30,492 nt of DNA, taken from a virus. How positions within the stretch are numbered: the first letter of the stretch is position 1; every line of letters begins with the position of its first letter. The position numbers and the translations under genes were made by a program. The stretch is taken from the IMG/VR virus record IMGVR_UViG_3300010375_000585, positions 1-30,492 of that record; one strand, 5' to 3'. Shown one piece after another: positions 2,910 through 27,200 of the stretch. The notes beneath the pieces were generated by a model, which was not told the origin of the DNA, searched no databases, and worked only from the letters and a program-made list of their open reading frames with translations.

Positions 2910-2925
2910 TGTATGGACCCCTGTT

Positions 2926-7602: not shown

Positions 7603-7620
7603 GTCTTTGGTATTTAGTGA
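7603..7620 (-). promoter_or_regulatory. TAAATAC promoter-like motif (copy A) of the tail-tip operon
   Basis: On the minus strand this reads TCACTAAATACCAAAGAC directly before the ATG at 7602; TAAATA is at 7611-7616, 8 bases from the start codon, with no Shine-Dalgarno between. Copies in front of 12579 and 16417 share the extended TCACTAAATA. Read as a -10-like element, transcription would begin at or next to the ATG. Confidence 0.6.
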
Positions 7621-7756
7621 CGGAACCGTTTAGACAGGGAAGCAACCTTGAGCAGGGTGCCCAAATTACGCTTTGCTCACGTGTTTATGAACAACCGGAG
7701 GCCTGCAACCCGTATCGTAATAAGGGCGGCAGAATTCTATCTGTAGTGGGTCTCTT

Positions 7757-7942
7757 ATGATGTATTCGCCATTACAAGGCCAAATACTCTTGATCGTTGA
7801 CGCCTTTCTGATTCTTGTCCTACTCACCAAAGGGCTTGTCCCAATGAAAAGGCACTTCTGGCTCGATGCGACGTTCAGCTTGTGTTGGAGCATCATCGTC
7901 GTTGCAGCCGGTGTAGTGCAGCTGGTCATTGACGCTTATTGA
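7757..7942 (+). CDS. Small two-TM membrane protein on the opposite strand within the tail module
   Basis: 61 aa with tandem ATGs (7757, 7760) after a weak TAGTGGG-like upstream region. Two hydrophobic segments (about 8-25 and 36-59) flank the short basic loop MKRH, which suggests an inner-membrane hairpin. It runs against all its neighbours, in a 330-base gap between the fibre gene (ending 7936) and the tip operon (starting 7602), and overlaps the fibre gene's stop by 7 bases. This is the position of an independently expressed moron. It could be a second holin, a lysogenic-conversion protein or an exclusion protein; no motif decides. Upstream, 7621-7756 holds no gene that I can see, only a weak TGAGCA/TGCTCA dyad at 7649-7679. 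Confidence 0.6.
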   Translation: MMYSPLQGQILLIVDAFLILVLLTKGLVPMKRHFWLDATFSLCWSIIVVAAGVVQLVIDAY

Positions 7943-9108
7943 AGCTTGAAAACTACTGTGATATCGGACTGAATGTGCATGCCAGTTGTGCCAGCAGTTG
8001 TGGAGTCCAGTTGTACCTGTGAATACAGGCCGTTGGTCCAAGTGCTGTGATTCACTGGAATACCACCGGCAGGATTGCCTGTCGTTGCGTCAGCTGTGTA
8101 GTACGTGACTGGGGTTCCGCCAGCTGTCACGTCATAGAGCGTAAAGAAGTCGTAGAAGTAACAATTGGAACTGGAGCCATATGAGCAGGACTTCAGCCTG
8201 TGTCCGTACTGGATGATGTGATACCAGTGATTGACTGTTGGGGTGAAGCTGGTTAGATCACTGCTGCCATTCATTGACTTGAAGATGAACTTCTTCCACG
8301 AACTGCAACCCTGCGGACAATAGGCGAACATCGTTAGCCCTTTGCCCCAGTGCATACCCCATCCAAAATATCCGCATGGGCTTGTAACGCTGCCAGTTGA
8401 ACAGCCGGACTGTGCATAGGCAGTGTCTGAACTGTTGATGTTCACGTCATGTTCAGAATCCCAGAGCGTGGTCACGTTATCCCACATCACGTAGAACGAA
8501 CGCATGTACCAGTTGCCTGTGTCCAACGTTGTGGAGTTGGAAGTCCACAATGTCGGGAAGAGAACACTTGAATTCACATGGCCGCTGACTGCTGTTTGAC
8601 TGAAGTAGGCAGAAGCTGAAGTGTGACAACCCGCTGGGGCCAGTCCGGGAAACAATGTGGGATCGCTGTTGTGCGGATCGCCACTGCAAATTGAATCGTC
8701 AGCTGTTCCCCCGTAGGTATCAGTCAATGCTGTTGCTGAATCGGAACCACCAGCGCTATGTCCGTTGTCTGGGGCAGCAATGCCAGTACCTGAAGAGGTG
8801 ACCGATACGACGCCCTCCGATGCACAGCCAGCACTCACGGCAGCTGACTGGATTGATGACGTTGCATACAACTGTCCAACGGGATCAGAGGATGGCTGAA
8901 TGACTCCCCCACTGCACCCAGTGCCAAAATTCCCCAGTTGTTTACGTGCCGGAGAAGAGACAATCGTGGTTGAGTTTGAATTGCTTGCGAGGTCGCCAGA
9001 CATCAGCACAGTTGCAGTCTGTGAAGAAGTAGATGGGCGTCTGAAGCCACCGAACTGGGCAGAGCACGGCAGGCACACTGCGAGTAGGAGCGTAGCGAGG
9101 TATTTCAT
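7936..9108 (-). CDS. Secreted fibre/adhesin-like protein with Sec signal peptide
   Basis: 390 aa. The N-terminus MKYLATLLLAVCLPCSAQ is a classic Sec signal peptide with probable cleavage after A17, rare in virion proteins. The mature part is Ser/Thr/Gly-rich with more than a dozen Cys, many in pairs (CSTGSVTSPCG, CPQGCSSW, CSYGSSSNC), suited to disulfides outside the cytoplasm. Residues about 190-390 (WYMRSFYVMWDN, HWYHIIQYGHRL, YFYDFFTLYDVTAGGTPVTYY) resemble a concanavalin-like jelly roll, which would bind or cleave surface polysaccharide. Its ATG directly follows the stop of the beta-helix gene (TAAATG) after a GGGAG ribosome-binding site, so the two are co-expressed. It may be a tail-associated adhesin, a secreted depolymerase or a conversion factor. 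Confidence 0.75.
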   Translation of the reverse strand: MKYLATLLLAVCLPCSAQFGGFRRPSTSSQTATVLMSGDLASNSNSTTIVSSPARKQLGNFGTGCSGGVIQPSSDPVGQLYATSSIQSAAVSAGCASEGVVSVTSSGTGIAAPDNGHSAGGSDSATALTDTYGGTADDSICSGDPHNSDPTLFPGLAPAGCHTSASAYFSQTAVSGHVNSSVLFPTLWTSNSTTLDTGNWYMRSFYVMWDNVTTLWDSEHDVNINSSDTAYAQSGCSTGSVTSPCGYFGWGMHWGKGLTMFAYCPQGCSSWKKFIFKSMNGSSDLTSFTPTVNHWYHIIQYGHRLKSCSYGSSSNCYFYDFFTLYDVTAGGTPVTYYTADATTGNPAGGIPVNHSTWTNGLYSQVQLDSTTAGTTGMHIQSDITVVFKLQ

Positions 9109-12100
9109 TTACTTCGCTCCCACGTTCCAAGTAACGCTTGCGCCGGGTGTCACCGAAGCACTTGCGCTTGAGTTGCAGACGCGCCAGTTGAGCGTGTTCG
9201 TTGTTACCCAATAGCTGAAATACAGTGTGCCGCCAGGACTCCAGCCGGTTGTGCTGGACACATCTGAAGTAGGAGTTGGGGGATCAACTACTGATGTCGT
9301 CGCAACTCCGGTCATCGTTGTTGCAGTTGCTGAAGTGCAGGACAGTGCAGCGATTGCGGTTGTGCCTGTAGTGATCTGAACGTTTGTGATGCCGGAACCG
9401 CCGCCTGAAGTGACGTACCCCTGCGCGACTACCCATGCCTGAGTAGCGACAGTGCCACCGCCAGCAGGGAGAGTAATAGTGCTGCTGTCAGCCGTCGTTG
9501 GTCCGGCAATCTTTGTGAACCCACTTAAGCCGTATACATACAGATTCTTTGAGTACCAGTCTCCTGGCGTTGAACCCCCGAGATTTGCCCAAGCTCCTGC
9601 GCGTGCTGCGTTTGATCCAATCCACGTGCCGCTGAGGGTGCCGCTGAGATCTGAAATCTGATAGGGCATCAGCCAATTCAGTGCGTTGAATGCAGTGCCA
9701 GCACCAGCGAGTCTTCCGATGCCATTTCCGGAGCGGTCAACCATGTAGATTGAACGGGCCGGATTGAGGTTGAGGTCTGTAGTAGAGGTTGTATCCGTCT
9801 GAACTGTGTTCGTCTGCGTGGTGTCAATTGTCGCCGTGCCGGTCAAGTGCGGGGCGTTCTGTAGAACGTGACTCCCTGTTCCCGTACATGTAACGGCTTG
9901 CAAGGCACCTGCAGAGCTTGTATTCAGTCCACATGCACTTGGCAATCCACTCACTGTCGCTGCGGACACTGACACAGGCATATTCAACACTGATGAACCG
10001 CCCACCGCGCCAGTGCTTAGAACCTGAGAGAATGCTGCTTCTGTTGCCGCAGTCCCGGTTAACCCTGTCATGACTTGCACGTTTGCGACTGAGATTGTGG
10101 CACCAGCTGAATCGTTCGGATAGGCGACGAGAGTAAAGTTCGTGCTGGCCGTCTGGTTGCTCTTGTACATCACCACTCGCGTCCATTTGCCAGCTTTTAG
10201 CGAGATAGTTGCATTGCTTGTTGTTCCGAAGAAGCCAACAAAATAGTTCGTGTCCACTGAGGACTTGATCATGAAGCTGCAAAGAACGTCGAATGCAGAA
10301 GCCGGTGGAGAAGTGACGATGTTGTTTACCGTCCATCTGTTTGAGCCAGCACTTCCGGCTGATGCAGCATGGGTGATCGTGTTGATTGGACCCCACAGTG
10401 CATCAGTTGTTGTTCCGGAGCTGGAGCCGCCAGCGGGCGTCAGTGCGGGAGCGCTTGCGTTTCCGCTGAACTCATTGATGACACCGCCCGCCGTGTAGAT
10501 GGGTGCGCCAAACAGTGAGAACTGGGCAACCGTCTTAAGACTCTCAGGCCAACTGCGAACAGGGCCTGCAATACCAATTGCTGAATCACTACCGGAAAAA
10601 CCGATGTTGCTTGTTGAGTCCCCCGTTGCAAGATTGCCGAATGTCTGACCATAGCCAGCCACGTCAGCAAACTCAATCGAGGAGTGGTTGGTAGCAATTG
10701 CCCAAGGATTTGCCTGCGCATCCCCAATGAAGACGTGATCTACGTAGACGGTTGCATAGTTATTTGCAAAGACTGTTGCGCGGGTGATTGTATTGCCGTC
10801 GATGGTCACTGAAGCTGCGCCGGATGCATTCGATTCTGGAGCACCCCCGACCATATACAGCTTGGAACTGTTACTGCTACCGATCACTGCAACAGCAGCG
10901 ACTGAGTTTGTGAGAAAGGCTGTGTTGTAGAAGTAGTTCGAGCCTTGAAACAGGTTCGGCGTGTATTGAATAACGCCAACTGTGTTTCCGACGATCTGAC
11001 CGCCCATGAAGTTGATGCTGTTCGCTCCACCAGCAGTAGCGTCTGAATAGAGCTTTGCGCCTACGTAGTTGTTGTAGAGACGAGGCGAAACGATGTCAGC
11101 AAACTGAGTTGCGTTGAATACCAAACCAGCAGTACCGCAATCATGAATGTTTGGAGCTATCAGTTCGACTTGAGCGTGATTGCCAACGGTTAAACCAGTT
11201 GTTCCGGTCTGGCTGCTGCCGTCAATCTCCAATCCTTCAATGACCATCTTGCCGTTGGTCTGTAGAGTTGCACCGCCACCAATCGTGAGAACCGTCTGGT
11301 TTGCTGCCGAGGGAATCAGTTTTGCTCCCCAAGCCTGAATCTTGGTGTAGGTGTTAAGAGTCAAACCGCTCACTTTGCAGACTGAACCCTGGGGAATGAC
11401 AACAATCCCGAGCGAACCAGCGTCTGTCACAGCCTGAGCTATTGCGGTCGTATCGTTGTGTGTGCCGTCGCAGAATGCGTTGTAAGGGGCTGCCAAAGGG
11501 TTGATTTGTTTATTGACGCTGGAGACTACTGTCGTTGCGGCGACTTTGGCGGTGACTGCAATGCCGTTTGCCCCGTCACTTGCCAATCCTGCAATTGATC
11601 CAACAGCTGATGCACCAGCAGGGCCTGTGGCTCCAGTCGCTCCTGGGGCACCCGTTGCGCCTGTTGGTCCTTGTGGAATGTTGCAGTTCAGAAGCACTGA
11701 GCCAGTGCCCACTAGAGCGCATGATGCCGGAGTTCCATATGGGACTGTCGTAGTCGTCCCATACGTGAGCGATGCAGCCGGAATTATTGACGTTGATGGA
11801 TCGTAACTATCCAGCGACCAGCTTGAGCCAGTAATGCTCGTCATTCCGTAGTCGCGGAGAACTGCACCGGTGTTGCGGTTGTTTGTCGTGACGTGGTAGT
11901 AAATGCCTGTCGGTGTGGGCTGAACAGAGAGTCCGGATTGAAGTACGCCATTGCTGACGAGGCCGCACACTGGTGTAGCCACAACCTGCACTGAACCAAC
12001 GCGAAAGCCAGCTGGCGCACCAGTTGCATCCACAGGGGCAAAGCAGAGCTTGCCGTTCACTGGGCGACTGAATGAATCAGTGATTGCTGATGCAGAGATT

Positions 12101-12180
12101 GATGTTGGCGTCGCGTTAGCCACAACAGCACCGGCAACAAAAAATAGTGAAGCTATAGATGTAATTAATTTACGAAGCAT
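9109..12180 (-). CDS. Tailspike-like secreted protein: signal peptide, collagen-like repeat, pectate-lyase beta helix
   Basis: 1023 aa. Residues 1-23 form a Sec signal peptide ending VVANA, with likely cleavage after A23. Residues 30-160 look like an Ig-like domain with Cys pairs. Residues 171-191 are seven Gly-X-Y triplets (GPT GAT GAP GAT GAT GPA GAS), a collagen-like trimeric stalk. At 232-255, APYNAFCDGTHNDTTAIAQA matches the start of the pectate_lyase_3 right-handed beta helix, which continues to about 500. The C-terminal third is beta-rich, with LPAGGGTVATQAWVVAQGYV and a final Cys-containing domain ending in VTPGASVTWNVG seen in many fibre tips. It is probably a trimeric fibre that binds or degrades surface polysaccharide. 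The signal peptide is unexpected for a virion fibre assembled in the cytoplasm. Confidence 0.82.
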   Translation of the reverse strand: MLRKLITSIASLFFVAGAVVANATPTSISASAITDSFSRPVNGKLCFAPVDATGAPAGFRVGSVQVVATPVCGLVSNGVLQSGLSVQPTPTGIYYHVTTNNRNTGAVLRDYGMTSITGSSWSLDSYDPSTSIIPAASLTYGTTTTVPYGTPASCALVGTGSVLLNCNIPQGPTGATGAPGATGATGPAGASAVGSIAGLASDGANGIAVTAKVAATTVVSSVNKQINPLAAPYNAFCDGTHNDTTAIAQAVTDAGSLGIVVIPQGSVCKVSGLTLNTYTKIQAWGAKLIPSAANQTVLTIGGGATLQTNGKMVIEGLEIDGSSQTGTTGLTVGNHAQVELIAPNIHDCGTAGLVFNATQFADIVSPRLYNNYVGAKLYSDATAGGANSINFMGGQIVGNTVGVIQYTPNLFQGSNYFYNTAFLTNSVAAVAVIGSSNSSKLYMVGGAPESNASGAASVTIDGNTITRATVFANNYATVYVDHVFIGDAQANPWAIATNHSSIEFADVAGYGQTFGNLATGDSTSNIGFSGSDSAIGIAGPVRSWPESLKTVAQFSLFGAPIYTAGGVINEFSGNASAPALTPAGGSSSGTTTDALWGPINTITHAASAGSAGSNRWTVNNIVTSPPASAFDVLCSFMIKSSVDTNYFVGFFGTTSNATISLKAGKWTRVVMYKSNQTASTNFTLVAYPNDSAGATISVANVQVMTGLTGTAATEAAFSQVLSTGAVGGSSVLNMPVSVSAATVSGLPSACGLNTSSAGALQAVTCTGTGSHVLQNAPHLTGTATIDTTQTNTVQTDTTSTTDLNLNPARSIYMVDRSGNGIGRLAGAGTAFNALNWLMPYQISDLSGTLSGTWIGSNAARAGAWANLGGSTPGDWYSKNLYVYGLSGFTKIAGPTTADSSTITLPAGGGTVATQAWVVAQGYVTSGGGSGITNVQITTGTTAIAALSCTSATATTMTGVATTSVVDPPTPTSDVSSTTGWSPGGTLYFSYWVTTNTLNWRVCNSSASASVTPGASVTWNVGAK

Positions 12181-12183
12181 TGT

Positions 12184-12579
12184 TTAAACGTCTGACCCCA
12201 AGGCGAAGATGTTTCCCCATGTCGTCGTTGTCGGAGTGGGGGTGACAGTGAATGTGCTGTACGTTCCGAATGACTGAATCTGTTTTCCGGAATTTGTGTC
12301 GAAGAGGACTGCTGAATACGAGGCGTTCGGGTTGTCAACGCTGTCAGTGGTGGAGTCCAACAGAATGGATGGGATAGTCAGATTTGTTCCGCTGACAGTG
12401 CAATCGGCTACTGCGGCTAAGAAAGTTCCGAGACTTGCTGGATTGGACTGAACTGTCATGGGGTGATGTGATCCCCCATTCGCAGTGAAACTGCTATTCA
12501 CGAAAACCCGAATCTGAATGCCCGTCGTATTGCCGAACCAATTGGCGATCGTTTGCCCGGTGATTGTTATTGAGGCCAT
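12184..12579 (-). CDS. Small beta-rich structural protein preceding the fibres
   Basis: 131 aa, no signal peptide and no membrane segment. It is Thr/Ser-rich and predicted mostly beta (ITITGQTIANWFGNTTGIQI at the start, TPTPTTTTWGNIFALG near the end). It lies between the tape measure and the signal-peptide fibre, ending 3 bases before the fibre ATG. That position would fit a fibre adaptor, a minor tail protein or an assembly chaperone. I do not recognise a family. The start codon lacks a ribosome-binding site but has TCACTAAATAC with TAAATA 8 bases upstream, so it probably heads a leaderless transcript that includes both fibre genes. Confidence 0.68.
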   Translation of the reverse strand: MASITITGQTIANWFGNTTGIQIRVFVNSSFTANGGSHHPMTVQSNPASLGTFLAAVADCTVSGTNLTIPSILLDSTTDSVDNPNASYSAVLFDTNSGKQIQSFGTYSTFTVTPTPTTTTWGNIFALGSDV

Positions 12580-12603
12580 AGTGCTTGTATTTAGTGATTT
12601 GGT
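12580..12603 (-). promoter_or_regulatory. TAAATAC promoter-like motif (copy B) of the fibre operon
   Basis: The minus strand reads ACCAAATCACTAAATAC, then CAAGCACT before the ATG at 12579. TAAATA is at 12588-12593, 8 bases from the ATG. The 14 bases CCAAATCACTAAAT recur exactly in front of the tail-tube gene (copy C). Confidence 0.62.
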
Positions 12604-12607
12604 GCTC

Positions 12608-15145: not shown

Positions 15146-15150
15146 CTAAT

Positions 15151-15869: not shown

Positions 15870-15896
15870 CTTAAAAAATCCTTTGTGTAAGCTATG

Positions 15897-15921: not shown

Positions 15922-15952
15922 CTGTAAACACTATTGTTGGACCACTGGGTTG

Positions 15953-16417
15953 TTAGCTACCGACTGTGAAGCCCCAAGCACCTGTCAACTGAACGCTGAC
16001 GCTTGCCTCGACGTGCTTGTCGTATGCAACGCCAGTTGGCATTGGGTAGGTCTCGAAGTAGCCAGTGAATGTGTAGAGATCGCCAGCCACTGTCTGTCCG
16101 GTGCACTTTGGAAGCTGGACTTTGAAGTCTGTGCTGGTCTGTGCATTGAAGAATGTGCGGACGTTTGCCAAAGAGCCATCAAGTGGGTCATAGACAACAG
16201 TTGCGCTGAATTTGCCCGGATCAATTGAAGTCGGGATGCGCTCCTTGATGACTGCGCTGCCCTGCAAGGGGCTGCTCAAATTGGTCACTTCATCAAATCC
16301 CAGTGTTGGGGGAGTGATGTTGAATGTCTTGATCTGTGCGAATGTCTGAAATGAGTTCGCGCCGTGCGAAGAAAAGCTAATGTTCGCGCCTGCGCCAACG
16401 ATTGCTAGTGTAGACAT
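15953..16417 (-). CDS. Major tail (tube) protein
   Basis: 154 aa. It should polymerise as hexameric rings into the tail tube. The sequence is beta-rich: ANISFSSHGANSFQTFAQIK, TPPTLGFDEVTNLSSP, IDPGKFSATVVYDPLDGSLA, LYTFTGYFETYPMPTGVAYD and a terminal VSVQLTGAW. The DEVTNLSSP / GKFSATVVYDP / GYFETYPMP pattern is characteristic of short tail tube proteins of HK97/lambda-type siphoviruses. It lies between the tail terminator and the chaperones as expected. It has its own promoter-like motif upstream, a GAGGT ribosome-binding site and a hairpin terminator downstream, so it can be made in larger amounts than its neighbours. Confidence 0.87.
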   Translation of the reverse strand: MSTLAIVGAGANISFSSHGANSFQTFAQIKTFNITPPTLGFDEVTNLSSPLQGSAVIKERIPTSIDPGKFSATVVYDPLDGSLANVRTFFNAQTSTDFKVQLPKCTGQTVAGDLYTFTGYFETYPMPTGVAYDKHVEASVSVQLTGAWGFTVGS

Positions 16418-16474
16418 AATTTAATTACCTCGTGATCGGAATAGTGTTTACCGTTATCTATTTAGTGATTTGGC
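16418..16474 (-). promoter_or_regulatory. TAAATA promoter-like motif (copy C) and leader of the tail tube gene
   Basis: The minus strand reads GCCAAATCACTAAATAG; TAAATA is at 16459-16464, 41 bases before the ATG. It shares CCAAATCACTAAATA with copy B. Unlike copies A, B, D, G and H, a transcript from here would carry a leader, and this gene does have a Shine-Dalgarno (GAGGT, 10 bases before ATG). Confidence 0.6.
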
Positions 16475-18400: not shown

Positions 18401-18424
18401 AAAGTCATGTGTATTTAGCGTTTG
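18401..18424 (-). promoter_or_regulatory. TAAATAC promoter-like motif (copy D) of the connector operon
   Basis: The minus strand reads CCCAAACGCTAAATAC with TAAATA at 18412-18417, 11 bases from the ATG at 18400. It lies 11 bases downstream of the T tract of the capsid terminator, so transcription appears to stop and restart here. Confidence 0.6.
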
Positions 18425-18431
18425 GGCAGAC

Positions 18432-18458
18432 AAAAGGGCCGGGGATAAACCCCAGCCC
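18432..18458 (-). terminator. Rho-independent terminator after the major capsid gene
   Basis: On the minus strand GGGCTGGGG (18458-18450) pairs with CCCCGGCCC (18444-18436) through nine pairs, one of them a G-U, around loop TTTAT, followed by TTTTG. On the plus strand the same position is a C-A mismatch, so the structure favours the minus-strand RNA. It lies 26 bases after the capsid stop. Confidence 0.83.
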
Positions 18459-18483
18459 TCTGTGGATCGCCTTTAGCTTTGAA

Positions 18484-19647: not shown

Positions 19648-19786
19648 TTTATATATGCCCCGAAATAGGTATGGAGTTATGCGCAATGACAACTCCGGCT
19701 ACCTGCCGAAGCTTCTGTTGCTTCATCGAGGGGGTGTTGTGATTGAACACAGCTATCCAGTAGCCACGCCCAGATGACGTCAGCGG
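19648..19786 (-). promoter_or_regulatory. Long structured 5' leader of the capsid gene
   Basis: 139 bases separate promoter-like copy E from the capsid ATG. Three small dyads are visible: GGAGTT/AACTCC (19673-19678 with 19691-19696), CGGC/GCCG (19696-19708) and GAAGC/GCTTC (19708-19724). CGGGGC lies about 10 bases before the ATG as a weak ribosome-binding site. Stacked 5' hairpins commonly stabilise abundant mRNAs; an RNA-level role is inferred. Confidence 0.4.
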
Positions 19787-19800
19787 TATTTAGCGTTCTG
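19787..19800 (-). promoter_or_regulatory. TAAATAC promoter-like motif (copy E) of the capsid gene
   Basis: The minus strand reads CCAGAACGCTAAATACC with TAAATA at 19792-19787. It follows the T tract of the terminator at 19812-19843, the same terminator-then-motif order as at copy D. Confidence 0.58.
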
Positions 19801-19804
19801 GTGA

Positions 19805-19843
19805 CAAAGAAAATGGCCCGAGTCCGAAAAGACTCAGGCCATT
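19805..19843 (-). terminator. Strong rho-independent terminator before the capsid unit
   Basis: On the minus strand AATGGCCTGAGTC (19843-19831) pairs with GACTCGGGCCATT (19824-19812): 13 pairs including one G-U, loop TTTTCG, followed by TTCTTTG. On plus-strand RNA the G-U becomes a C-A mismatch. It lies 18 bases after the stop of the decoration-like gene and insulates the capsid unit from upstream transcription. Confidence 0.85.
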
Positions 19844-19860
19844 GCGAGAATAGGAATGGA

Positions 19861-20430
19861 TTACAGGGCTGTTGCTTTTATCTCGTAGCGGACTTTGACT
19901 TTCAAGGTTGAATTGCCGGTGGTCAGGTTTGCGGTTTCCAGTGCCAGGTTCAGCGGCTGATTGTCAGCCGTCGCTAACGGCAAAACATAACCGAGACCCC
20001 CTTGTGGCACTAGCCCAACAAAGCCGCCGTTCGCAGTCAGCGCGAGAACAGGTGAATCTGACGCGTCTCCCGGCCATCTGTCGTCTACAACTGTCAAGCT
20101 GTTGTTTGAGCCGTAATAGATTTGCAGCACCCCTTTCCCAGTCACATCGAACGCAACGCCACCATAGGTCAGGTAGAACTGTGCGTCGTAGAACTGGATG
20201 TACTTGCCAGCGCCGGGAGCCGGAACCAACTGAATTGGCGCAGTGTGCAGAGTCTTAATCTGTGCTGCGGTGAGTGTGATCGTCGCAACGAGGAGAGCGC
20301 TGCTGCTAGTAAAGTTCCACTGATTGCCATCGTCTGTGTAGACACATTGAGTATCAGTTGTCGTGTATGTGCTTCCGGGAGTGCCCGGGGAGGGCATCTG
20401 TGAAGCAAAGCCGGTGTGATTTATAGGCAT
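19861..20430 (-). CDS. Probable head decoration / minor head protein
   Basis: 189 aa. The N-terminus MPINHTGFASQMPSPGTPGS is Gly/Pro/Ser-rich. The rest is beta-rich (YIQFYDAQFYLTYGGVAFDV, GVLQIYYGSNNSLTVVD, NSTLKVKVRYEIKATAL), with no membrane segment or signal peptide. It lies between the prohead protease and the major capsid gene, where decoration or head-fibre proteins are often encoded. That place, and the beta-sandwich character, are the only evidence for a virion role. The ribosome-binding site is AGAGGT, 11 bases before the ATG; a strong terminator follows. Confidence 0.6.
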   Translation of the reverse strand: MPINHTGFASQMPSPGTPGSTYTTTDTQCVYTDDGNQWNFTSSSALLVATITLTAAQIKTLHTAPIQLVPAPGAGKYIQFYDAQFYLTYGGVAFDVTGKGVLQIYYGSNNSLTVVDDRWPGDASDSPVLALTANGGFVGLVPQGGLGYVLPLATADNQPLNLALETANLTTGNSTLKVKVRYEIKATAL

Positions 20431-20443
20431 GTCAGTAGTACCT

Positions 20444-21139
20444 CTATTTGTCTAGCAGTGATGCGAAGCCAATGCGGATGCGCATTCTAATGTTTTCGTT
20501 CTCTTCGTGTTCCATGGTGCGTTCCTGATCATCAAAGCAAGCGCAGAGCCCGTCATCACAATCAGGATCGCTGCAAAGATCACAGTCACCTGCAAGGCAT
20601 TCCGCGCAGTCACATGAACACTGCTCCATGTCTCGCGCTTCTGGGGCGCCATCAGGGAATAGTGATCTGAGTTGTGACGTGGTATCTGCATATGCGGGGA
20701 ATGTCACACCAACTGATACTTCAAACAATTCGAGATCGGTGACTGTGCGGATGCGTTCACCGTTTTGTGTCCCCCAGGAATCGCTGAGACAGATGAAGCC
20801 AAATGAACAGCCGCGCACGTCACCACGTGCAATGCTCACTTTGAGATCGCGAGCAGCGGACGTATCTGGCAATTCCAGTTCGTAAGCAAGCCCCTGTTCA
20901 TCCTGAGTCAGCTTGAGTGTGCCGCTTCGCGTGTTACCAACACATGCGCTTGTATCGTGGTTGATCAGGGCGCGAATCTCGTTGTTGAGAGAGGAGGTAA
21001 AGCAGCCCGGTGCGAGCTGTTCACGGAATCCCCCAAGGTCCTCGCTCAGTGTGTTGAATAAAGCGATATGACCAACGAGAGTGTTTCCGTCTCCCTTCTG
21101 CTCAACGCTTCCTAGTACTCGAAATTCACGTTTCTTCAT
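20444..21139 (-). CDS. HK97-family prohead protease with Cys-rich C-terminal tail
   Basis: 231 aa. It matures the capsid by removing the delta domain of the major capsid protein. The N-terminal 165 residues are the U35 serine protease: GHIALFNTLSEDLGGFREQL, LINHDTSACVG (catalytic H61), ARGDVRGCSFGF (catalytic S112) and LELFEVSVGVTFPAY (acidic E140). The usual protease body is followed by an odd segment, residues 174-201, with nine Cys in 28 residues (CSCDCAECLAGDCDLCSDPD and CDDGLCAC) among many Asp, then a charged helix. This could bind metal or act as a degradable interaction tail. The ATG overlaps the portal stop as ATGA, with GAGG upstream. Confidence 0.92.
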   Translation of the reverse strand: MKKREFRVLGSVEQKGDGNTLVGHIALFNTLSEDLGGFREQLAPGCFTSSLNNEIRALINHDTSACVGNTRSGTLKLTQDEQGLAYELELPDTSAARDLKVSIARGDVRGCSFGFICLSDSWGTQNGERIRTVTDLELFEVSVGVTFPAYADTTSQLRSLFPDGAPEARDMEQCSCDCAECLAGDCDLCSDPDCDDGLCACFDDQERTMEHEENENIRMRIRIGFASLLDK

Positions 21140-22797
21140 TGCTTTGTTGCCTCGTCGGTGTTTAATTCGTCTACTGCCTTTGCTGTAGCGATTGTCTTCG
21201 CAACTTCTATGTGGATACTGCGTACGACCTTTTGAAATTCGCTATCGATCTCGCCCTCTGTCCACTTGTCGGCCCGCTTTTGCATTGCTTTTAGGGTGTC
21301 TGCAACGACTCTTGTAGTCACTTCGGCGTCAATTCCACTCACTTTGTTATCCCTAAAGCCCACTGACATGGAGCAAATGGCCTCCAGAACTGGGCTGAAA
21401 ATGGGGCGAATAGTGTCTAAATCGCGCTTCTGCCGGGTGTTTGCACGGTTGAATGCGTCCCTAAACAGCGGCAGATAAGCCTGTGAATAGGCGTTATGGA
21501 TGTTTCTGACCGCCTCATCTGCGGGATCTTCAGCCTGGGTCGGTGGATACTCCACTTGCAACAGGCGTTTGGCGTTCATGTAGTTCACTGGTGTGGTGTA
21601 CACGTCACCTTCAGGCCCAATTGGGTTCTCGCCTAGCTTCTTGCGCACGTCGTTGGTTGAGAACCAGCCATTGATACGTCCGGTGCTGTAGCCGTCCATC
21701 ATCGTCTTGAAGTCACAGCGCACAAGGGCATTCGTATCGAACTCCAGCTTGTACTTCTGTACTGCACCCGGATATGCCAGCACTTTGCGAAGGATTTCGC
21801 TTTCAATCTTTCTGAGGTATGGGTTCAGTGTGTATGTGAGGAACTGTTGAGCTTGTTGCTCTGCATTTGAGCCCGAGAGACGCGACATGTCGCCAACCAT
21901 GTGGGGCGGTATGCGGAACAATGCTGCGATGTCTGCTCGGCTATGCGCTCTGCTTTGGATGTACTGGCTGGCGTCGTTGCTGATCTCAATGCTGACCCAT
22001 TCCCATTCAGCGCCGTTGATGAACGCAACTTTACCCTGATTGGTGCCACCTTGTTGTGTGGACCAGGACTCACGCGCATTCTGTAGCTGCTTTGCGTCAA
22101 GAGACTTTGTGCCCTTCCAGACCATTGCGCCGTTTGGCTTCTGGTTATTGCCAAAGTGCCTAGCGCCGGACTTCTCTTGTGCCTTTGCAAGTCCGATCGC
22201 TTCACGTCCCGCATCAACAGGTGACAAGCCCTTGTAGCCTTGGATTGACATGATGTGGAAGTGCAAGCAATTCGCAGCTTCTATGCGGCGTGTCTGCCCG
22301 TCTGACATCCCCTCGCCGGTTTCAAAGTAGAGTGTTCCGGTTGCGTCGCGCTTTGGCGTTGTCTTCCACGGATGCAAAGGCCAGAAGGCGACTGGCTGCT
22401 TGGCTTTATTGCGCTCAATCTCTGCATACGCATTGCCTGTCAGGGCCATGCAAGCGGCCATTGTCTCTAGGAATACGTCTGTGCCCTGTTCTGGGTTTGC
22501 TTCAACTGTCAGAAGTCTGTAAACAGGATTGTCTATAGCTTCTTTGTGCCCAGTAGCAGTGATCTCTGAAATCTTTAGGGGAAGGACTGAAACTGATTCT
22601 GCGATGGTGCGAACACAAGCGTAGACAGTGGACAGCAACAGGGCATTCTGTTCAGTGACAGTCTCGCCAGCTGTTGTGGACTCCCCTGCGAATAGCTGCA
22701 ATAGCCCTGGCGTTGACAGCGGCACTGCGGGATTCTCAAGCGGATTACTGCGAAGTTGTAACTGGGTCAGCCCAGATGATCTATCAAAAAAGCCCAT
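21136..22797 (-). CDS. Portal protein, HK97 family
   Basis: 553 aa. It forms the dodecameric ring through which DNA is packaged and ejected. Family landmarks: TVYACVRTIAESVSVLPLKI, NPVYRLLTVEANPEQ, TGNAYAEIERNKAKQPVAFW, SIQGYKGLSPVDAGREAIGL, FGNNQKPNGAM, FRIPPHMVGD, and QQAQQFLTYTLNPYLRKIES. The C-terminal 150 residues are helical and longer than in HK97 gp3. Between 22798 and 22863 lies promoter-like copy F; the ribosome-binding site AAGGA is 9 bases from the ATG. The 3' end overlaps the protease start. Confidence 0.96.
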   Translation of the reverse strand: MGFFDRSSGLTQLQLRSNPLENPAVPLSTPGLLQLFAGESTTAGETVTEQNALLLSTVYACVRTIAESVSVLPLKISEITATGHKEAIDNPVYRLLTVEANPEQGTDVFLETMAACMALTGNAYAEIERNKAKQPVAFWPLHPWKTTPKRDATGTLYFETGEGMSDGQTRRIEAANCLHFHIMSIQGYKGLSPVDAGREAIGLAKAQEKSGARHFGNNQKPNGAMVWKGTKSLDAKQLQNARESWSTQQGGTNQGKVAFINGAEWEWVSIEISNDASQYIQSRAHSRADIAALFRIPPHMVGDMSRLSGSNAEQQAQQFLTYTLNPYLRKIESEILRKVLAYPGAVQKYKLEFDTNALVRCDFKTMMDGYSTGRINGWFSTNDVRKKLGENPIGPEGDVYTTPVNYMNAKRLLQVEYPPTQAEDPADEAVRNIHNAYSQAYLPLFRDAFNRANTRQKRDLDTIRPIFSPVLEAICSMSVGFRDNKVSGIDAEVTTRVVADTLKAMQKRADKWTEGEIDSEFQKVVRSIHIEVAKTIATAKAVDELNTDEATKQ

Positions 22798-22852
22798 TTA
22801 ATCTATTCCTTGAAGGCGTGGCCTCGGTACTGATGTATTTATTGGTTTGGCC
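22798..22852 (-). promoter_or_regulatory. TAAATAC promoter-like motif (copy F) of the portal gene
   Basis: The minus strand reads GGCCAAACCAATAAATAC, TAAATA at 22836-22841, 38 bases before the portal ATG. The core differs from the others at the preceding base (A instead of C). As at copy C, the gene here has a Shine-Dalgarno (AAGGA), as expected if the mRNA has a leader. Confidence 0.52.
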
Positions 22853-22863
22853 GCCTGAAACGG

Positions 22864-24558
22864 TTACGCGAACACGAAGCCCGTGAATTCGGCTGCTGTG
22901 TCTATTGGCATTCGGACTGATATGCCACATGCCATAACCGCTGCGATGATCCCGTCCACCTTTCGCTTGTTGCTGTTCTTCTGCGGGCGCATAGGGCGCA
23001 TATTGCCATCGTTATCGCTAATGATGGCGACGTTGTCAGCTTGCCAGCGGAGCAACTGGCCTGCGTCATGCTGCATTTGACCGGTGACAACCTGAGCTTC
23101 AAACGTCTTTGCGCCCTCGCTCATCCCGTTGTAGTTCTGGCGGATCTCGATCATCTCTATGCCGTCATCGCGCAGTTCATCTGCTAGACGCGTTGCATGC
23201 CAAGGGTCAAAGCCACAGACACGCAGGTCAAAGTCTGCCGCCCACTGCTTGATCTGCTCACGCACTGCGTTCTGATCCGTTGTGCCGCCCGTTGTAGCTG
23301 TTAGTTCCCCGTTCTTCAACCAATGCTGCCAGCGCATATCGCCCTGTTGTGTGTATTTCTCAATGGTGTCCTCGGGAAGAAAGAACTTCCACATGTAGCG
23401 GTAGCGCTCGCCCTCGCGTTCAGGGGGGAAGCAAAGGCTGGCGGCAGTGAGATCAAGCTTCTCTGCTAGGTCCAATGCCGCAAAGCATGGTCGTCCACGC
23501 ATCTCGTCATACGTGAATGGGGCTTTGCATTTGTCCCAGTCAGACACCTTCAGCCAGGACTTCTCTTGTGAGGTCCAGCGGCACATGTGCTTGATGAGGA
23601 AGTTGTTCAGTGCCCCAGCTGACTGCGAGGCACGTAACGCCTTTTCGCGTAGGTCAGGCAGCAATGTTGCAATGTGGCGAAGATTGGGATTTGCTTTCTC
23701 CCAAACGGATTCGTCTGCATATGAGTCACCATCATCAATACAGGCGACAAAGCCAAACCACGAATCATTGGGGACCGCCCCAGTTGCATGCGGGTCAGCT
23801 GCGGCTGTGAGCAAGTCAGTGACGAGCTTGCGCAGTTCAAAACAGATACCGGACTGATCAAATCCGGCTGTGGTGATGATCCAGATAAGGGGTTGCTGAC
23901 GTGACCCAGTTGCTGTGTCCAGAACGTCCCAGACTTCGCGTGTGGGATGCGCGTGCAATTCATCAACGACTGCCCCATGAATGTTCAATCCATCAAGGCT
24001 CTTGCTGTCACTGCTCAGTGGCTGGAACGTGGAGTCAATCTGAAAGGCAAGTGATTCCCGAAATGTCTCGATGTGTCGGGATAGCTCGCTGTTTGCGCGA
24101 ACCATGCGCCGTGCCTCACCCCAAACGATCTTTGCCTGATCCCGCTTCGTAGCTGCGGAGTAGATCTGTGCAGCTGGTTCCCCATCGAGAATGAGCATGA
24201 ACAGCGCAATAGCTGCCAGCAATGTGCTTTTGCCATTACGCCTTGCGACTTCAATGTAGACGCGGCGGAAGCGTCTCAGCCCCGTTGCCTTGCGCTTCCA
24301 TCCAAATACGCAAGCAACGATGAAGGCTTGCCAGTCCATCAAGTGGAATGGCTGCCCGGCTAGTTCACCTGCTGAATGTTTGAAGAGGGTAGGGAAGGCG
24401 TTGCAGACGAATATTGCTTGTGCACGATCAAAATAGAGATCACGTGCGTCTGCGTTCTTGAGATCGTCAAGGTGGCGTTGAACTGCCATCCTCACGTACT
24501 TGCTAGTGACAATGCGGTTGTTTACAACGTCATCTATGTACTGCTCAAAAAGCTCCAT
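22864..24558 (-). CDS. Terminase large subunit (ATPase/nuclease)
   Basis: 564 aa. It drives DNA into the prohead and cuts the concatemer. The N-terminal ATPase has the Walker A variant ARRNGKST (K110), Walker B VVDE (D199, E200) and the coupling motif WIITTAG near 226-232. The C-terminal RNase H-like nuclease shows Asp residues at FAALDLAEKLDLTA (D363), GFDPWHATRLADEL (D451) and RKVDGIIAAVMA (D535), a plausible metal triad. Length and motifs fit the Terminase_1 / HK97 gp2 family. The start overlaps the small subunit gene by 14 bases. The nearby HNH gene suggests cos-type packaging. Confidence 0.97.
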   Translation of the reverse strand: MELFEQYIDDVVNNRIVTSKYVRMAVQRHLDDLKNADARDLYFDRAQAIFVCNAFPTLFKHSAGELAGQPFHLMDWQAFIVACVFGWKRKATGLRRFRRVYIEVARRNGKSTLLAAIALFMLILDGEPAAQIYSAATKRDQAKIVWGEARRMVRANSELSRHIETFRESLAFQIDSTFQPLSSDSKSLDGLNIHGAVVDELHAHPTREVWDVLDTATGSRQQPLIWIITTAGFDQSGICFELRKLVTDLLTAAADPHATGAVPNDSWFGFVACIDDGDSYADESVWEKANPNLRHIATLLPDLREKALRASQSAGALNNFLIKHMCRWTSQEKSWLKVSDWDKCKAPFTYDEMRGRPCFAALDLAEKLDLTAASLCFPPEREGERYRYMWKFFLPEDTIEKYTQQGDMRWQHWLKNGELTATTGGTTDQNAVREQIKQWAADFDLRVCGFDPWHATRLADELRDDGIEMIEIRQNYNGMSEGAKTFEAQVVTGQMQHDAGQLLRWQADNVAIISDNDGNMRPMRPQKNSNKRKVDGIIAAVMACGISVRMPIDTAAEFTGFVFA

Positions 24559-25021
24559 TCCTGATGCGTGATTGCTCTGCCAACAGCTTCTCTAGTGGGG
24601 AAGCCAAATCTGGGTTTGTTGATTTCAGCTGTGCACGTGCTGATGGTGTCAATCCGAACTGCCCCAGCAGAGCCCGTACTTGCTTTTGTGTCTTGTCGTA
24701 GATGTTGGTTGCGGGATTGGCCTTCTTGCCCTGCGAGGACTCAATGACAATGCCGTCACGTTGAATGCTCTCGTATGCCAGCGCCTTCATCTCAAGTGCT
24801 TGGCAGAGCATTTCCAGTGCCGCGCCATCTGCTGTTGTCAGTGTGCCCAGTTGCAAAAGAATGGGTACGAGGCCATGCCAGAATGCCTGTGCCTTGTTCG
24901 ACAGTCCGAATGGCATTTCAGGTGCGCCATTGACCGCCTGTGGCTCTCGATCATTGAGTGGTCTGTGTGCTGGATTGCCCTGCGCGACGCGCATTGCTGT
25001 TGGTGTTGCTGGATTGGGCAT
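24545..25021 (-). CDS. Terminase small subunit, P27 family
   Basis: 158 aa from the ATG at 25021; the frame opens further upstream but the P27-type start MPNPATPTAMRVAQGNPAHR followed by PLNDREPQ is clear. The pattern GLSNKAQAFWHGLVPILLQL, LTTADGAALEMLCQALEM, ANPATNIYDKTQKQVRALLG, QFGLTPSARAQL matches P27/TIGR01558 small terminases, which recognise the packaging site and load the large subunit. No ribosome-binding site is present; TAAATAC lies 5 bases before the ATG, indicating a leaderless start. The 3' end overlaps the large subunit by 14 bases. Confidence 0.94.
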   Translation of the reverse strand: MPNPATPTAMRVAQGNPAHRPLNDREPQAVNGAPEMPFGLSNKAQAFWHGLVPILLQLGTLTTADGAALEMLCQALEMKALAYESIQRDGIVIESSQGKKANPATNIYDKTQKQVRALLGQFGLTPSARAQLKSTNPDLASPLEKLLAEQSRIRNGAF

Positions 25022-25188
25022 GTATGTATTTACCAAAGTCAGGAGTTTTCTACTGCGTTTGCGTGGCGATGACTCGCGGTGGGTTGTGAGCAGCCCTGAC
25101 CAAACATTCAGGAGGCCCCTATCCCTTGTGCCTATTGATGTTCGCCATCGGGTCGTAAAGCAGCATCCAACCTTGCAGAGGTCCCACG
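25022..25188. other. Non-coding gap before the terminase genes: promoter-like copy G and probable cos region
   Basis: On the minus strand GGTAAATACATAC directly abuts the small terminase ATG (TAAATA at 25027-25032, 5 bases away). The rest has no convincing minus-strand gene. The position between the HNH gene and the small terminase is where HK97-like phages carry cos. I cannot identify the cut site or binding repeats by eye. The plus-strand small gene starting at 25189 must be transcribed from within or beyond this gap. Confidence 0.4.
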
Positions 25189-25368
25189 ATGAACGACCAA
25201 AGCAAAGACCTACCTGAAGGACGTAATCCCAGCCAGGCAACACCGCATCCGAAACCATGTTTCATCATTCGTCACGATCAAGCCATTGCACGTGAGCCGA
25301 ATGCCCAGGCTGAGAGCACGAGGCAAGAGGAACAGCCGGACAGCGAAGGGCGATTCAAGGAGGAGTAG
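25189..25368 (+). CDS. Small hydrophilic protein on the opposite strand between terminase and HNH genes
   Basis: 59 aa, plus strand. AGAGGT lies 7 bases before the ATG at 25189, a good ribosome-binding site. The product starts MNDQSKDLPEGRNPSQATPH and is rich in Gln, Glu, Pro and Arg, with PCFIIRHDQAIA in the middle and an acidic end (EEQPDSEGRFKEE). It has no membrane segment and no motif that I recognise. The minus strand has no competing gene here, since the HNH frame ends at 25373, 4 bases after this stop, so the two genes converge. It could be a moron or an early gene; a chance frame is not excluded at this length. Confidence 0.5.
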   Translation: MNDQSKDLPEGRNPSQATPHPKPCFIIRHDQAIAREPNAQAESTRQEEQPDSEGRFKEE

Positions 25369-25372
25369 TTCA

Positions 25373-25699
25373 TTACTCTCCTCGTGCCGTTCTCACGCAA
25401 TGGCACGTGTGGCACAGCGCCATCATGTTTGTTGGCTCATATCGCAGATGTTCATGCTGCCGCGCTTTAGCGATGTGATGGACTTCAGTAGCTGCTTCAA
25501 CGTGGTTATTCCCCATGCAGTCAGCACACAGCGGGTTGTCTGCAAGGAATGCTTTGCGGAAGCAGCGCCACTTCCAGTCGTATATCTGGTTCTTCTCTGT
25601 CTGATCTATTACGGGCCGGTGCCGTTCGCAGTATCCAGAGTCAACTAGCTGCGCGCAGCCAGGACGAGAACAGAACCGTTTGGCCTTTGCGTTAGGCAT
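25373..25699 (-). CDS. HNH endonuclease associated with packaging
   Basis: 108 aa. The HNH core is visible as ATEVHHI (H74, H75), PTNMMALCHTCH (N91, H98, H100), with zinc-binding Cys pairs CADC (58, 61) and CHTC (96, 99). The N-terminal CSRPGCAQLVDSGYCERH (C10, C15, C24, H27) looks like a second small zinc knuckle, common in phage HNH proteins of this size. In HK97-like phages an HNH protein encoded next to terminase is needed for specific cos cleavage by the large subunit, and the location here fits. It starts 3 bases after the preceding stop. Confidence 0.92.
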   Translation of the reverse strand: MPNAKAKRFCSRPGCAQLVDSGYCERHRPVIDQTEKNQIYDWKWRCFRKAFLADNPLCADCMGNNHVEAATEVHHIAKARQHEHLRYEPTNMMALCHTCHCVRTARGE

Positions 25700-25702
25700 T
25701 GG

Positions 25703-25891
25703 CTAATTGACATATGGCGCGTATGGAGCAAGAGCTTCCTTAGGCGCTCCATTGGACAACAGCTCGCGAACTGCTACGGCTTCGTCGTGTTCCAGACGCC
25801 GCCATACTTGTCCAAGTGGATTGACGAATCCCTGTTGGTTTAGTTGTGTATCGATGATCGCGATCAAAACGTCGCGTAATGGTAAGGACAT
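25703..25891 (-). CDS. Small unknown protein in the packaging/lysis cluster
   Basis: 62 aa from the ATG at 25891, which overlaps the holin-like stop as TAATG; a frame opening at 25927 runs through the previous gene. The sequence is MSLPLRDVLIAIIDTQLNQQ, then GQVWRRLEHDEAVAVRELLS and a short tail ending YAPYVN. It is soluble, mostly helical, with no motif that I recognise. Its tight coupling between holin-like and HNH genes suggests late expression and a role in lysis timing or packaging, with no direct evidence for either. Confidence 0.65.
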   Translation of the reverse strand: MSLPLRDVLIAIIDTQLNQQGFVNPLGQVWRRLEHDEAVAVRELLSNGAPKEALAPYAPYVN

Positions 25892-26088
25892 TATCGGATC
25901 GCCTTTGTGGCTCGAATGCGGCCCCATATCGTAATGAGTGCGCCGACGAGTCCAACAACTGCCTGTGCGATTCCGGATGCCTGCTGATCAGTGATGTTGA
26001 CCCCGTACTTTACTAGCAGTGGAGAAGCGAAAGTGATGACTGCGCCCCAGAACGTAACTGACTGGAATATGCTTTTGGATTCGTTCAT
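25891..26088 (-). CDS. Putative holin (two-TM)
   Basis: 65 aa. Residues 11-27 (VTFWGAVITFASPLLVK) and 38-56 (SGIAQAVVGLVGALITIWG) are hydrophobic and separated by a short polar turn (YGVNITDQQ), with a basic C-terminus (RIRATKAIR). The SxTFWGAV start and the final G-xIxIWGRIRATK pattern is widespread among small phage membrane proteins annotated as holins. It would form inner-membrane lesions that release the lytic enzyme at the end of infection. The ATG overlaps the previous stop as ATGA with AGGA upstream. No classical endolysin accompanies it. Confidence 0.78.
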   Translation of the reverse strand: MNESKSIFQSVTFWGAVITFASPLLVKYGVNITDQQASGIAQAVVGLVGALITIWGRIRATKAIR

Positions 26089-26471
26089 AGTGTGTGTTCC
26101 TGTAATGGCGCAGGCATCGGAAACGATGAATGCGCGTAATGCAATGAGACTGCTCTGTAGTAATCGCCCTGCTGCTTGGACTGTGCAAGACGGTCTATGC
26201 GGGCTTGTTTAACGACGGCCTCAAGTTCAGCTGCCTTCTCAGCATCAGGGGCAGGGGCTAACCGTCTTGCCCTGCGAGTCTGTGGTGTGAACTTGCCCGC
26301 TGTGAATGTGTGTTCTGATATTCCCCACTTGAGCAAGCGACCATTGAACACCCCATATGGAACCCCGAGGTGTTTGGCCCAATCTTTCCTGAGTCGCGAT
26401 TCGCCCTTATATGTGATTGGCCCTGAACTGTACTTGCGCTTTACCGTGTTTCGTATGTCTTCGCTAGCCAT
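26085..26471 (-). CDS. Putative DNA-binding protein (AP2/HNH-associated HTH-like domain)
   Basis: 128 aa. Residues about 18-58 (ITYKGESRLRKDWAKHLGVP, then YGVFNGRLLKWGISEHTFT) match the small helix-turn-helix-like domain with pattern E-x-WA-x-x-LGI-x-x-x-x-L-x-x-RL-x-x-GWS-x-E-x-AFT, often found beside HNH or AP2 modules in phages. A basic linker (RRARRLAP) and a helix follow. The C-terminus GDYYRAVSLHYAHSSFPMPA resembles the C-terminus of the preceding gene. It may regulate late transcription, as it is encoded at the very start of the late region. The start overlaps the preceding gene by 31 bases. Confidence 0.68.
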   Translation of the reverse strand: MASEDIRNTVKRKYSSGPITYKGESRLRKDWAKHLGVPYGVFNGRLLKWGISEHTFTAGKFTPQTRRARRLAPAPDAEKAAELEAVVKQARIDRLAQSKQQGDYYRAVSLHYAHSSFPMPAPLQEHTL

Positions 26472-26632
26472 GGGGGAACTGCCGGACGGGTGGATTTGCT
26501 GAAGGAGTTTGGGTATTTGAGTGTGGCGTATTCGAGACTGATGTGGCGGTAGTACTCACCCAGCCTTTGTGCTGTGGCTACCATCTCCTCTCGTCGTGCC
26601 TCTGCTGTCAGTGTTTGTTCAATTTGCTGCAT
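26441..26632 (-). CDS. Small protein heading the late region, shares a C-terminal motif with the next gene
   Basis: 63 aa: a charged helix (MQQIEQTLTAEARREEMVAT) then GEYYRHISLEYATLKYP and a basic end. I do not recognise the family. Its GEYYRHISLEYA is very like GDYYRAVSLHYA of the downstream protein. No ribosome-binding site is present; TAAATA lies 6 bases before the ATG, and a terminator hairpin lies beyond, so this is probably the first gene of the leaderless late transcript. Candidate roles are a late regulator or a lysis accessory. Confidence 0.62.
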   Translation of the reverse strand: MQQIEQTLTAEARREEMVATAQRLGEYYRHISLEYATLKYPNSFSKSTRPAVPPWLAKTYETR

Positions 26633-26654
26633 CGTAGATATTTAGTGTGCAGTT
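26633..26654 (-). promoter_or_regulatory. TAAATA promoter-like motif (copy H) opening the late region
   Basis: The minus strand reads AACTGCACACTAAATATC, with TAAATA at 26639-26644, 6 bases before the ATG at 26632. It follows a minus-strand terminator (26676-26714), the same arrangement as at copies D and E. Confidence 0.55.
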
Positions 26655-26675
26655 TACAAATGTCCCGTTTAGCGA

Positions 26676-26714
26676 TAAAAATGCCCAAGTCCGTGAACGT
26701 AGTCGGACCTGGGC
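26676..26714 (-). terminator. Rho-independent terminator upstream of the late region
   Basis: GCCCAAGTCCG (26683-26693) and CGGACCTGGGC (26704-26714) form an 11-pair stem on the minus strand with one G-U (a C-A mismatch on plus), loop of 10, followed by ATTTTTATC. It stops minus-strand RNA arriving from the control region before promoter-like copy H. Confidence 0.78.
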
Positions 26715-26722
26715 TGAGGAGT

Positions 26723-26744
26723 ATTGCTGAATGGCATCAGCAAT
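26723..26744. repeat. Perfect 8-bp inverted repeat
   Basis: ATTGCTGA (26723-26730) and TCAGCAAT (26737-26744) flank ATGGCA. It adjoins the terminator hairpin (8 bases away) and lies just downstream of another TAAATA copy on the minus strand (26747-26752). It may be a second terminator stem, part of a small RNA, or a protein-binding site. Confidence 0.45.
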
Positions 26745-26746
26745 GT

Positions 26747-26756
26747 TATTTAGTAA
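26747..26756 (-). promoter_or_regulatory. TAAATA promoter-like motif (copy I) with no gene behind it
   Basis: The minus strand reads GTTACTAAATAAC, TAAATA at 26747-26752. The next gene is over 100 bases away and a terminator intervenes, so transcription from here would give only a short structured RNA of roughly 65 bases. Confidence 0.4.
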
Positions 26757-26775
26757 CTACGGCATTTGTTCTTTT

Positions 26776-26797
26776 AGTGATACATATAACTATCACT
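26776..26797. promoter_or_regulatory. Dyad operator candidate
   Basis: AGTGATA (26776-26782) and TATCACT (26791-26797) are perfect inverted 7-mers separated by 8 AT-rich bases. The size and symmetry suit a dimeric phage repressor. It lies in the control region between the divergent late and replication transcription units. No repressor gene is visible in the window. Confidence 0.4.
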
Positions 26798-26814
26798 TAT
26801 CGCATCAAACCCGA

Positions 26815-27180
26815 AGAATAGAGCTGTTTGTGCAGCCTCCAAAATGAGATAGCACGGACCCTGCACAGCTGAAACCCGCGCCGTTACTGGCTCTGTGCAC
26901 CCGTGCACCCTGTGCAGGGTATTTTCAGGATTCGCGGAAAAACGCGATTTATTTTTGTGTCACCACCGGAAAGCCATATCCGTAGCAATCGGGAAAATTC
27001 TCGCACACCCTGCACAGCCGTCGGCGATCATTTTGGATGAGAAGACTCTTGCGCGGCGACTAACTAAGTCGTAAAGTAGAAGAACGTTACTCCTTTCATT
27101 TTCCTTTATAAGTGGCGGGGTCGATAGATTGGTCTAATCGATCCTGCCCTTTTTGGCCCGTAAAAGCGAAAAAAGATGGA
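26815..27180. other. Control/origin region without genes: iterons and small dyads
   Basis: No convincing gene on either strand. The 11-mer ACCCTGCACAG occurs at 26858-26868 (plus), 26910-26920 (minus) and 27007-27017 (plus), with partial TGTGCAG/GTGCAC matches around 26829 and 26893-26907. An AT-rich stretch (GATTTATTTTTGTG, about 26946-26959) lies between copies two and three. Further dyads are CGACT/AGTCG (about 27056-27070) and TCGAT/ATCGA (27121-27142). Iterons plus an AT-rich element just upstream of primase and helicase genes suggest the replication origin; they could instead be operator sites. Confidence 0.45.
26858..27017. repeat. Three copies of ACCCTGCACAG (iteron-like)
   Basis: Exact copies are at 26858-26868, 26910-26920 (inverted) and 27007-27017, spaced about 41 and 86 bases apart. 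An 11-mer three times in 160 bases is well beyond chance. They are probable binding sites for a replication initiator or regulator. Confidence 0.7.
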
Positions 27181-27181
27181 G

Positions 27182-27200
27182 CCGGATAAATACATTGAGT
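27182..27200 (+). promoter_or_regulatory. TAAATAC promoter-like motif (copy J) of the replication operon
   Basis: The plus strand reads AGCCGGATAAATACATTG, with TAAATA at 27187-27192. It is one of only two plus-strand copies that I found, and it lies exactly at the upstream edge of the structured primase leader. If the start point is 5-8 bases downstream, the mRNA begins near 27198-27201. Confidence 0.5.

Follow-up and report, generated by a model that had tools for sequence, protein, structure and literature searches.

T4 (PMC2988020) and phiEco32-like phages (PMC8948821) are established cases of phages with promoters that consist of nothing but a -10 element, in both cases with sigma factors of the phages' own. 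The late promoters of T4 carry the octamer TATAAATA at -13 to -6 and no -35 element (PMC2988020), and the middle and late promoters of phiEco32 have the element tAATGTAtA, with the phage sigma factor gp36 and transcription starts 6-8 bp downstream (PMC8948821). The leaderless promoters of Deinococcus-Thermus and Actinobacteria form a further class, in which the signal is TANNNT with its first T about 12 bases upstream (PMC3160421, PMC12340547). In the open-access literature we found no earlier description of a TAAATA system of the kind considered here.

The window that we analysed is the whole of IMG/VR record IMGVR_UViG_3300010375_000585 (positions 1-30,492; 30,492 bases), the genome of a temperate siphophage of HK97 type. 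The minus strand carries the structural genes, which run from 26.6 kb to 2.5 kb; primase/helicase-like genes begin at 27.3 kb on the plus strand, and the left end holds a tyrosine-integrase-like gene. Position 1 falls on the integrase start codon and position 30492 on a stop codon, which suggests that the record was cut at gene borders out of a longer contig, as of a provirus. A genome scan for prophages near the window returned none that was close (best terminase match 43%), and plasmid searches yielded distant integrases only, or nothing; an acidobacterial host is our guess.

Throughout the late region of the window TAAATA lies between genes (nine junction copies and no interior ones), as the preliminary description had claimed. 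All nine minus-strand positions that it listed are present, as is the plus-strand copy at 27187, and its gaps to the start codons proved correct without exception. The outermost minus-strand copy (26747-26752) precedes the late region and lies 108 bases from the next copy, at 26639-26644, which is 6 bases from the ATG (26632) of a gene encoding a 63-aa protein. Following the direction of the late genes, there are then copies at 25027-25032, 5 bases from the small terminase ATG (25021); at 22836-22841, 38 bases from the portal ATG (22797); at 19787-19792, 139 bases from the major capsid ATG (19647); at 18412-18417, 11 bases from the head-tail adaptor ATG (18400); at 16459-16464, 41 bases from the major tail protein ATG (16417); at 12588-12593, 8 bases from the ATG at 12579; and at 7611-7616, 8 bases from the distal tail protein ATG (7602). 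The starts at 16417 and 22797 possess a Shine-Dalgarno (SD) sequence and the five close starts (26632, 25021, 18400, 12579 and 7602) do not, again as first described. Two copies occupy the plus strand: that at 27187-27192, opposite in strand to the late genes and 155 bases ahead of the primase-like gene at 27348, and an eleventh at 2460-2465, initially overlooked, which follows a GC-rich hairpin terminator and reads TAAATA-N5-ATG into a 41-aa ORF (2471-2596). This plus-strand ORF has a hydrophobic N-terminus and overlaps the end of a convergent 124-aa gene. A CCAAA-like box, thought at first to lie generally upstream of the element, accompanies 4 of the 9 copies only and is uninformative across relatives.

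The intergenic region between the divergent late and replication genes is itself rich in repeats. Iteron-like ACCCTGCACAG repeats in both orientations occupy 26858-27018, which is a possible origin. Two operator-like inverted repeats were also observed, namely AGTGATA...TATCACT at 26774-26800, a short way upstream of the outermost TAAATA (26747), and a perfect 11-bp repeat, GTCCCTAGTGA / TCACTAGGGAC, at 27304-27338 directly ahead of the primase-like gene.

Relatives of the window were collected from IMG/VR through terminase, portal, tail and capsid searches. L002 and L003 encode large terminases 70% and 66% identical to that of the window, and the L051, L078 and L080 phages are represented by contigs G001 (28 kb), G006 (23 kb) and G007 (22.6 kb, 41% GC), respectively. 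The proteins of these relatives are 25-92% identical to those of the window, their gene order is the same, and in all five TAAATA stands at gene junctions on the sense strand. In the L078 phage, the stretch from 2627 to 5341 holds transglycosylase-like, QueD-like and split GTP-cyclohydrolase-like genes that resemble, by eye, a 7-deazaguanine DNA modification system.

Simple counts in the window already reveal an excess, with 11 copies of TAAATA against 4.2 expected and 8 of TAAATAC against 1.15, a number that none of 100 shuffles reached. We ranked all 4096 hexamers by their sense-strand counts in junction versus interior zones of the late regions. TAAATA ranked first of all hexamers in the pool of six related phages, with 40 sense-junction copies against 1.7 expected, although the sites of related phages are not independent of each other. 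Phage by phage, the window (9 copies against 0.1 expected), L051 (11 against 0.23) and L080 each had TAAATA as their top hexamer, and L078 had it in second place; under a stricter definition of the zones its rank was 1 or 2 in each of these four. Its anagrams reached at most 15 junction-sense copies each against the 40 of TAAATA, and other TA-rich hexamers likewise showed no bias of this kind. Equal frequency inside genes and in unrelated phages, with no bias of position, had been named at the outset as what would speak against a promoter; the counts came out in favour of one.

The placement of the element is also conserved. It recurs in the window and its relatives ahead of the small terminase, portal, protease, major capsid, head-tail adaptor, major tail protein, tape measure, post-tape-measure and distal tail genes, although some junctions lack a copy in some phages and the gap lengths vary. 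The portal copy (22836) has orthologous counterparts at L002 1820 and L051 8243, and the small terminase site, TAAATACATACATG, is identical in L051 (5750), where it precedes an inserted gene. The gap is 139 bases in the window versus 141 in L051 at the major capsid gene, 41 versus 45 at the major tail protein gene and 8 versus 5 at the post-tape-measure start (12579); at the distal tail start (7602) it is 8 in the window, 10 in L051 and 5 in L080. Three sister phages, L052 (contig G002), L142 (G013) and L144 (G015), share the tail module with the window and differ in terminase type. Their junctions showed no enrichment of TAAATA, despite tail proteins up to 65-77% identical to those of the window in L052 and L142. 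Where the window has TAAATA at its post-tape-measure start, L052 and L142 have an SD sequence and no such element, and an SD sequence likewise takes its place at the distal-tail start in L052 and L144.

Distance from the start codon and the presence of a ribosome-binding site vary together, as was first proposed from the window, and across the related phages the separation of SD strength by gap is complete. At the 14 starts with a gap of at most 11 bases, pairing with the anti-SD ranges from -3.1 to +1.8 kcal/mol and an SD sequence is absent from every one (14/14), an absence that is partly geometric because a close TAAATA fills the space of the SD. The 19 starts with a gap of at least 16 possess an SD sequence, with pairing energies of -3.5 to -7.4 kcal/mol that do not overlap those of the close starts; random 20-mers average -2.3 kcal/mol. 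Three of the 19 coordinates for distant starts in our SD table were off by 1-3 bases, which leaves the picture unchanged. Genes behind a close TAAATA then have no visible ribosome-binding site. At L078 5343, a close copy overlaps a good SD-like sequence, which counts against the leaderless reading.

The register of the element relative to the start codon is similarly constrained. Its consensus in the closest relatives is RCTAAATACA, and an ATG at gap 5 is the mode (8 of 42 sites), every other gap below 12 being represented by 0-3 sites. Among the 34 sites with no ATG at gap 5, 19 have a YR step at the equivalent -1/+1 position compared with a background of 25% (p 1.2e-4), a pattern that had been glimpsed in the logo of the L080 phage before the test; with that phage removed, the figure is 13 of 28 (p 0.011). 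The neighbouring registers have YR at 5 and 9 of the 34 sites. In the pooled 42-site alignment there is no information upstream of -2, counted from the element, except for one weak isolated column; the early impression of an element with no consistent -35 therefore stands.

Terminators frequently lie immediately upstream. In the window, intrinsic terminators on the minus strand (19812-19843 and 18435-18453) directly precede the copies at 19787 and 18412, a terminator-like hairpin with an ATTTTTA tail (26683-26714, minus strand) lies 38 bases upstream of that at 26639, and the plus-strand hairpin at 2425-2445 lies 14 bases upstream of that at 2460. Among the 42 sites, 9 have a terminator-like hairpin that ends 5-30 bases upstream, compared with 1.2% of random positions, and of the 14 strongest late-sense hairpins (-15 kcal/mol or below) 10 have a TAAATA within 44 bases downstream. 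In a tool scan, the best-scoring hairpin of the window and the best three of L051 stood just upstream of TAAATA; the total of terminator-like sites in that scan was not above chance. Predicted sigma-70-type promoters were at or below chance (9 versus 13.2, 2 versus 10.6 and 5 versus 16.8). The T expected at the sixth -10 position of sigma-70 and TANNNT promoters is absent, the sites being TAAATA by definition, and shifted frames look worse by eye.

Taken together, orthologous conservation, the SD separation, the YR register, upstream terminators and the lack of a -35 support the idea, first raised from the window, of a -10-like element with leaderless starts. Judged from sequence, we consider it highly probable that TAAATA is a -10-only phage promoter which yields leaderless mRNAs at its close copies, a judgement that excludes the matter of a phage factor. 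The element would occupy -11 to -6, with no -35, and would read in the direction of the late genes; transcription would begin 5 bases past its last A. An alignment in which the T4 late octamer starts at -13 places +1 exactly on the ATG of gap-5 sites. With a start codon 4-8 bases downstream, the 5' end of the mRNA would coincide with the AUG or lie no more than a few bases from it, and translation would be leaderless, whereas a start codon at least 16 bases downstream would be preceded by a 5' leader with an SD sequence. Positioned behind most strong terminators and before the genes that head modules, the element may allow transcription to restart along the structural region. TAAATA does not qualify as a sigma-70 -10 box because its sixth base is not T, and the host polymerase would therefore have to be re-specified. 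Only some of the phages with the same tail genes possess TAAATA, which makes a phage-encoded factor the likeliest source of this specificity.

It is possible, though we think it somewhat unlikely, that TAAATA is instead read by an alternative or divergent primary sigma factor of the host, in which case the promoter reading would be the same. Searches for sigma-70 region 2 (PF04542) gave no match in the window, L051, L078 or L080, gp55 being a very distant relative of sigma-70, and a host factor would be consistent with this absence of a sigma-like phage gene. The copy at 27187 (plus strand), which heads the oppositely oriented replication leader and sits less easily with a promoter that is purely late and phage-activated, could under a host sigma be active early. 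Some bacterial phyla, furthermore, make frequent use of leaderless -10 promoters (PMC3160421, PMC12340547). Nevertheless, TAAATA does not match the known leaderless signal, TANNNT, and a host factor does not readily account for sister phages that lack the enrichment at such high tail protein identity. The Acidobacteriota phages Tunturi_3 and Tunturi_4 also show no enrichment, which weighs against a host sigma only as far as the guessed host of the window allows. A search for a T7-type RNA polymerase (PF00940) returned no match, and the control genomes were also blank, which renders the result uninformative. In sister contig G015 (L144), a protein encoded at 308-478 resembles sigma-70 region 2 (PF04542, E 1.6e-11), and G002 (L052) has a weak match of the same kind at 781-951 (E 3.8e-4, below the cut-off). 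Both genes precede the terminase genes at the left end, and their products are possibly late sigma factors of these phages' own.

A phage factor of another kind may be sought among small proteins that TAAATA phages encode near their terminase genes, in which a GxYYRxISLxY motif occurs alone or behind an HTH-like part. Two such candidate regulators are present on the minus strand of the window: the 63-aa protein (26441-26632; GxYYRxISLxY), whose gene opens the late region and is itself preceded by a close TAAATA, and a 128-aa protein (26085-26471; GxYYRxVSLxY) with an HTH-like N-terminal part and a long C-terminal helix. The predicted structure of the latter is of low confidence (pLDDT 72, pTM 0.35) and had no significant match in the PDB. 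Neither the sister phages nor about 130 other loci contain the pattern, a result that is only suggestive because the pattern was written after the family had been seen. To test the link, phages were chosen by the small protein alone. A scan with the back-translated motif identified G018, a 40-kb phage with no structural homologues, in which TAAATA occurs at junctions 5 times against 0.61 expected (p 4.4e-4, rank 17), or 4 times against 0.54 in stricter zones (p 0.0023, rank 30). One of its copies, in a TAAATA-N5-ATG start, opens the late genes, and two copies directly follow terminator-like hairpins; the best sigma-70 matches in this phage include three at minus-strand genes. Conversely, Tunturiibacter phage Tunturi_3 (PP885686), which was isolated from an Acidobacteriota host, has the motif yet shows no enrichment of TAAATA; its gp65 (L166 14974-15144; 56 aa, MPEAHVSNALGEYYRDLSINYTAY...) belongs to the family and lies among replication genes. 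This negative, set against the positive of G018, leaves the small protein as a candidate only. It is tempting to speculate that the GxYYRxISLxY proteins (63 aa, or 128-159 aa with HTH-like repeats) are new, non-sigma late factors that steer the host RNA polymerase to TAAATA and so programme leaderless expression of the structural region, although we rate this as rather improbable.

Mycobacteriophage L5 offers a different precedent, as its stoperators are oriented, asymmetric sites that are present in many intergenic copies and are bound by the repressor. The TAAATA copies are likewise oriented, asymmetric and intergenic, and could in principle be operators or stoperators through which a repressor silences late transcription in the lysogen. 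We hold this to be improbable: an operator needs neither a fixed register to the ATG or to YR, nor replacement of the SD, nor a terminator upstream, and we know of no start-codon register or SD replacement at the L5 sites.

Less probable still, to the point of being remote, is that UAAAUA in the transcript signals RNA processing and that downstream cleavage creates the leaderless ends. Cleavage at a fixed distance could also yield 5'-AUG ends, given the gap mode of 5. However, several copies have a strong terminator that ends 9-23 bases upstream, and little upstream transcript would therefore arrive to be cleaved. Terminators in this position instead point to a restart of transcription and count against the processing of a long transcript. 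The YR preference is initiator-like, and phages with the same genes do without TAAATA. Finally, a compositional accident of TAA stop codons and AT-rich junctions is scarcely credible, for although TAA doubles as the stop codon of the preceding gene in several copies, the hexamer ranking disfavours it, the anagrams fall far short and the sister phages have no bias.

The promoter that we infer is best understood beside the described systems. As in TANNNT promoters, a -10 box stands directly before the ORF, the SD is missing and the mRNA would be leaderless (PMC3160421, PMC12340547). TAAATA differs in lacking the final T and in having its first T 11 bases upstream, and it is restricted to some phages, whereas TANNNT is a class of cellular promoter. 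With phiEco32 it has in common a single -10-like element and no -35; the sequences differ, and phiEco32 has a recognisable sigma factor and, in the portion of the account cited, no mention of leaderless mRNAs (PMC8948821). There is also a likeness to the late promoters of T4, which depend on gp55, gp33 and the gp45 clamp and similarly present a single TA-rich -10 element ending in TAAATA in many copies at late genes (PMC2988020). Of the resemblance to T4 proposed in the preliminary description, the last six bases and the missing -35 hold good, and the start of the octamer does not: in place of the TA of TATAAATA, positions -13/-12 are here mostly A/G and then C. With this difference, and with no gp55 found, we do not class TAAATA as a T4 late promoter, although it would be T4-like in its working. 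Here, moreover, the phages are small, temperate and of HK97 type, many predicted starts fall on the AUG and no sigma domain was detected; nor did a sliding clamp or a gp33 co-activator turn up among the scanned proteins. If our reading is correct, small temperate siphophages of uncultured hosts possess a -10-only system through which terminase, head-tail and tail genes are expressed from leaderless mRNAs. Two questions thereby become testable, namely what minimal factor suffices to redirect a polymerase to one -10 element, and whether leaderless translation can form part of a phage late programme. Such a system would apparently have converged with that of T4 in both sequence and register.
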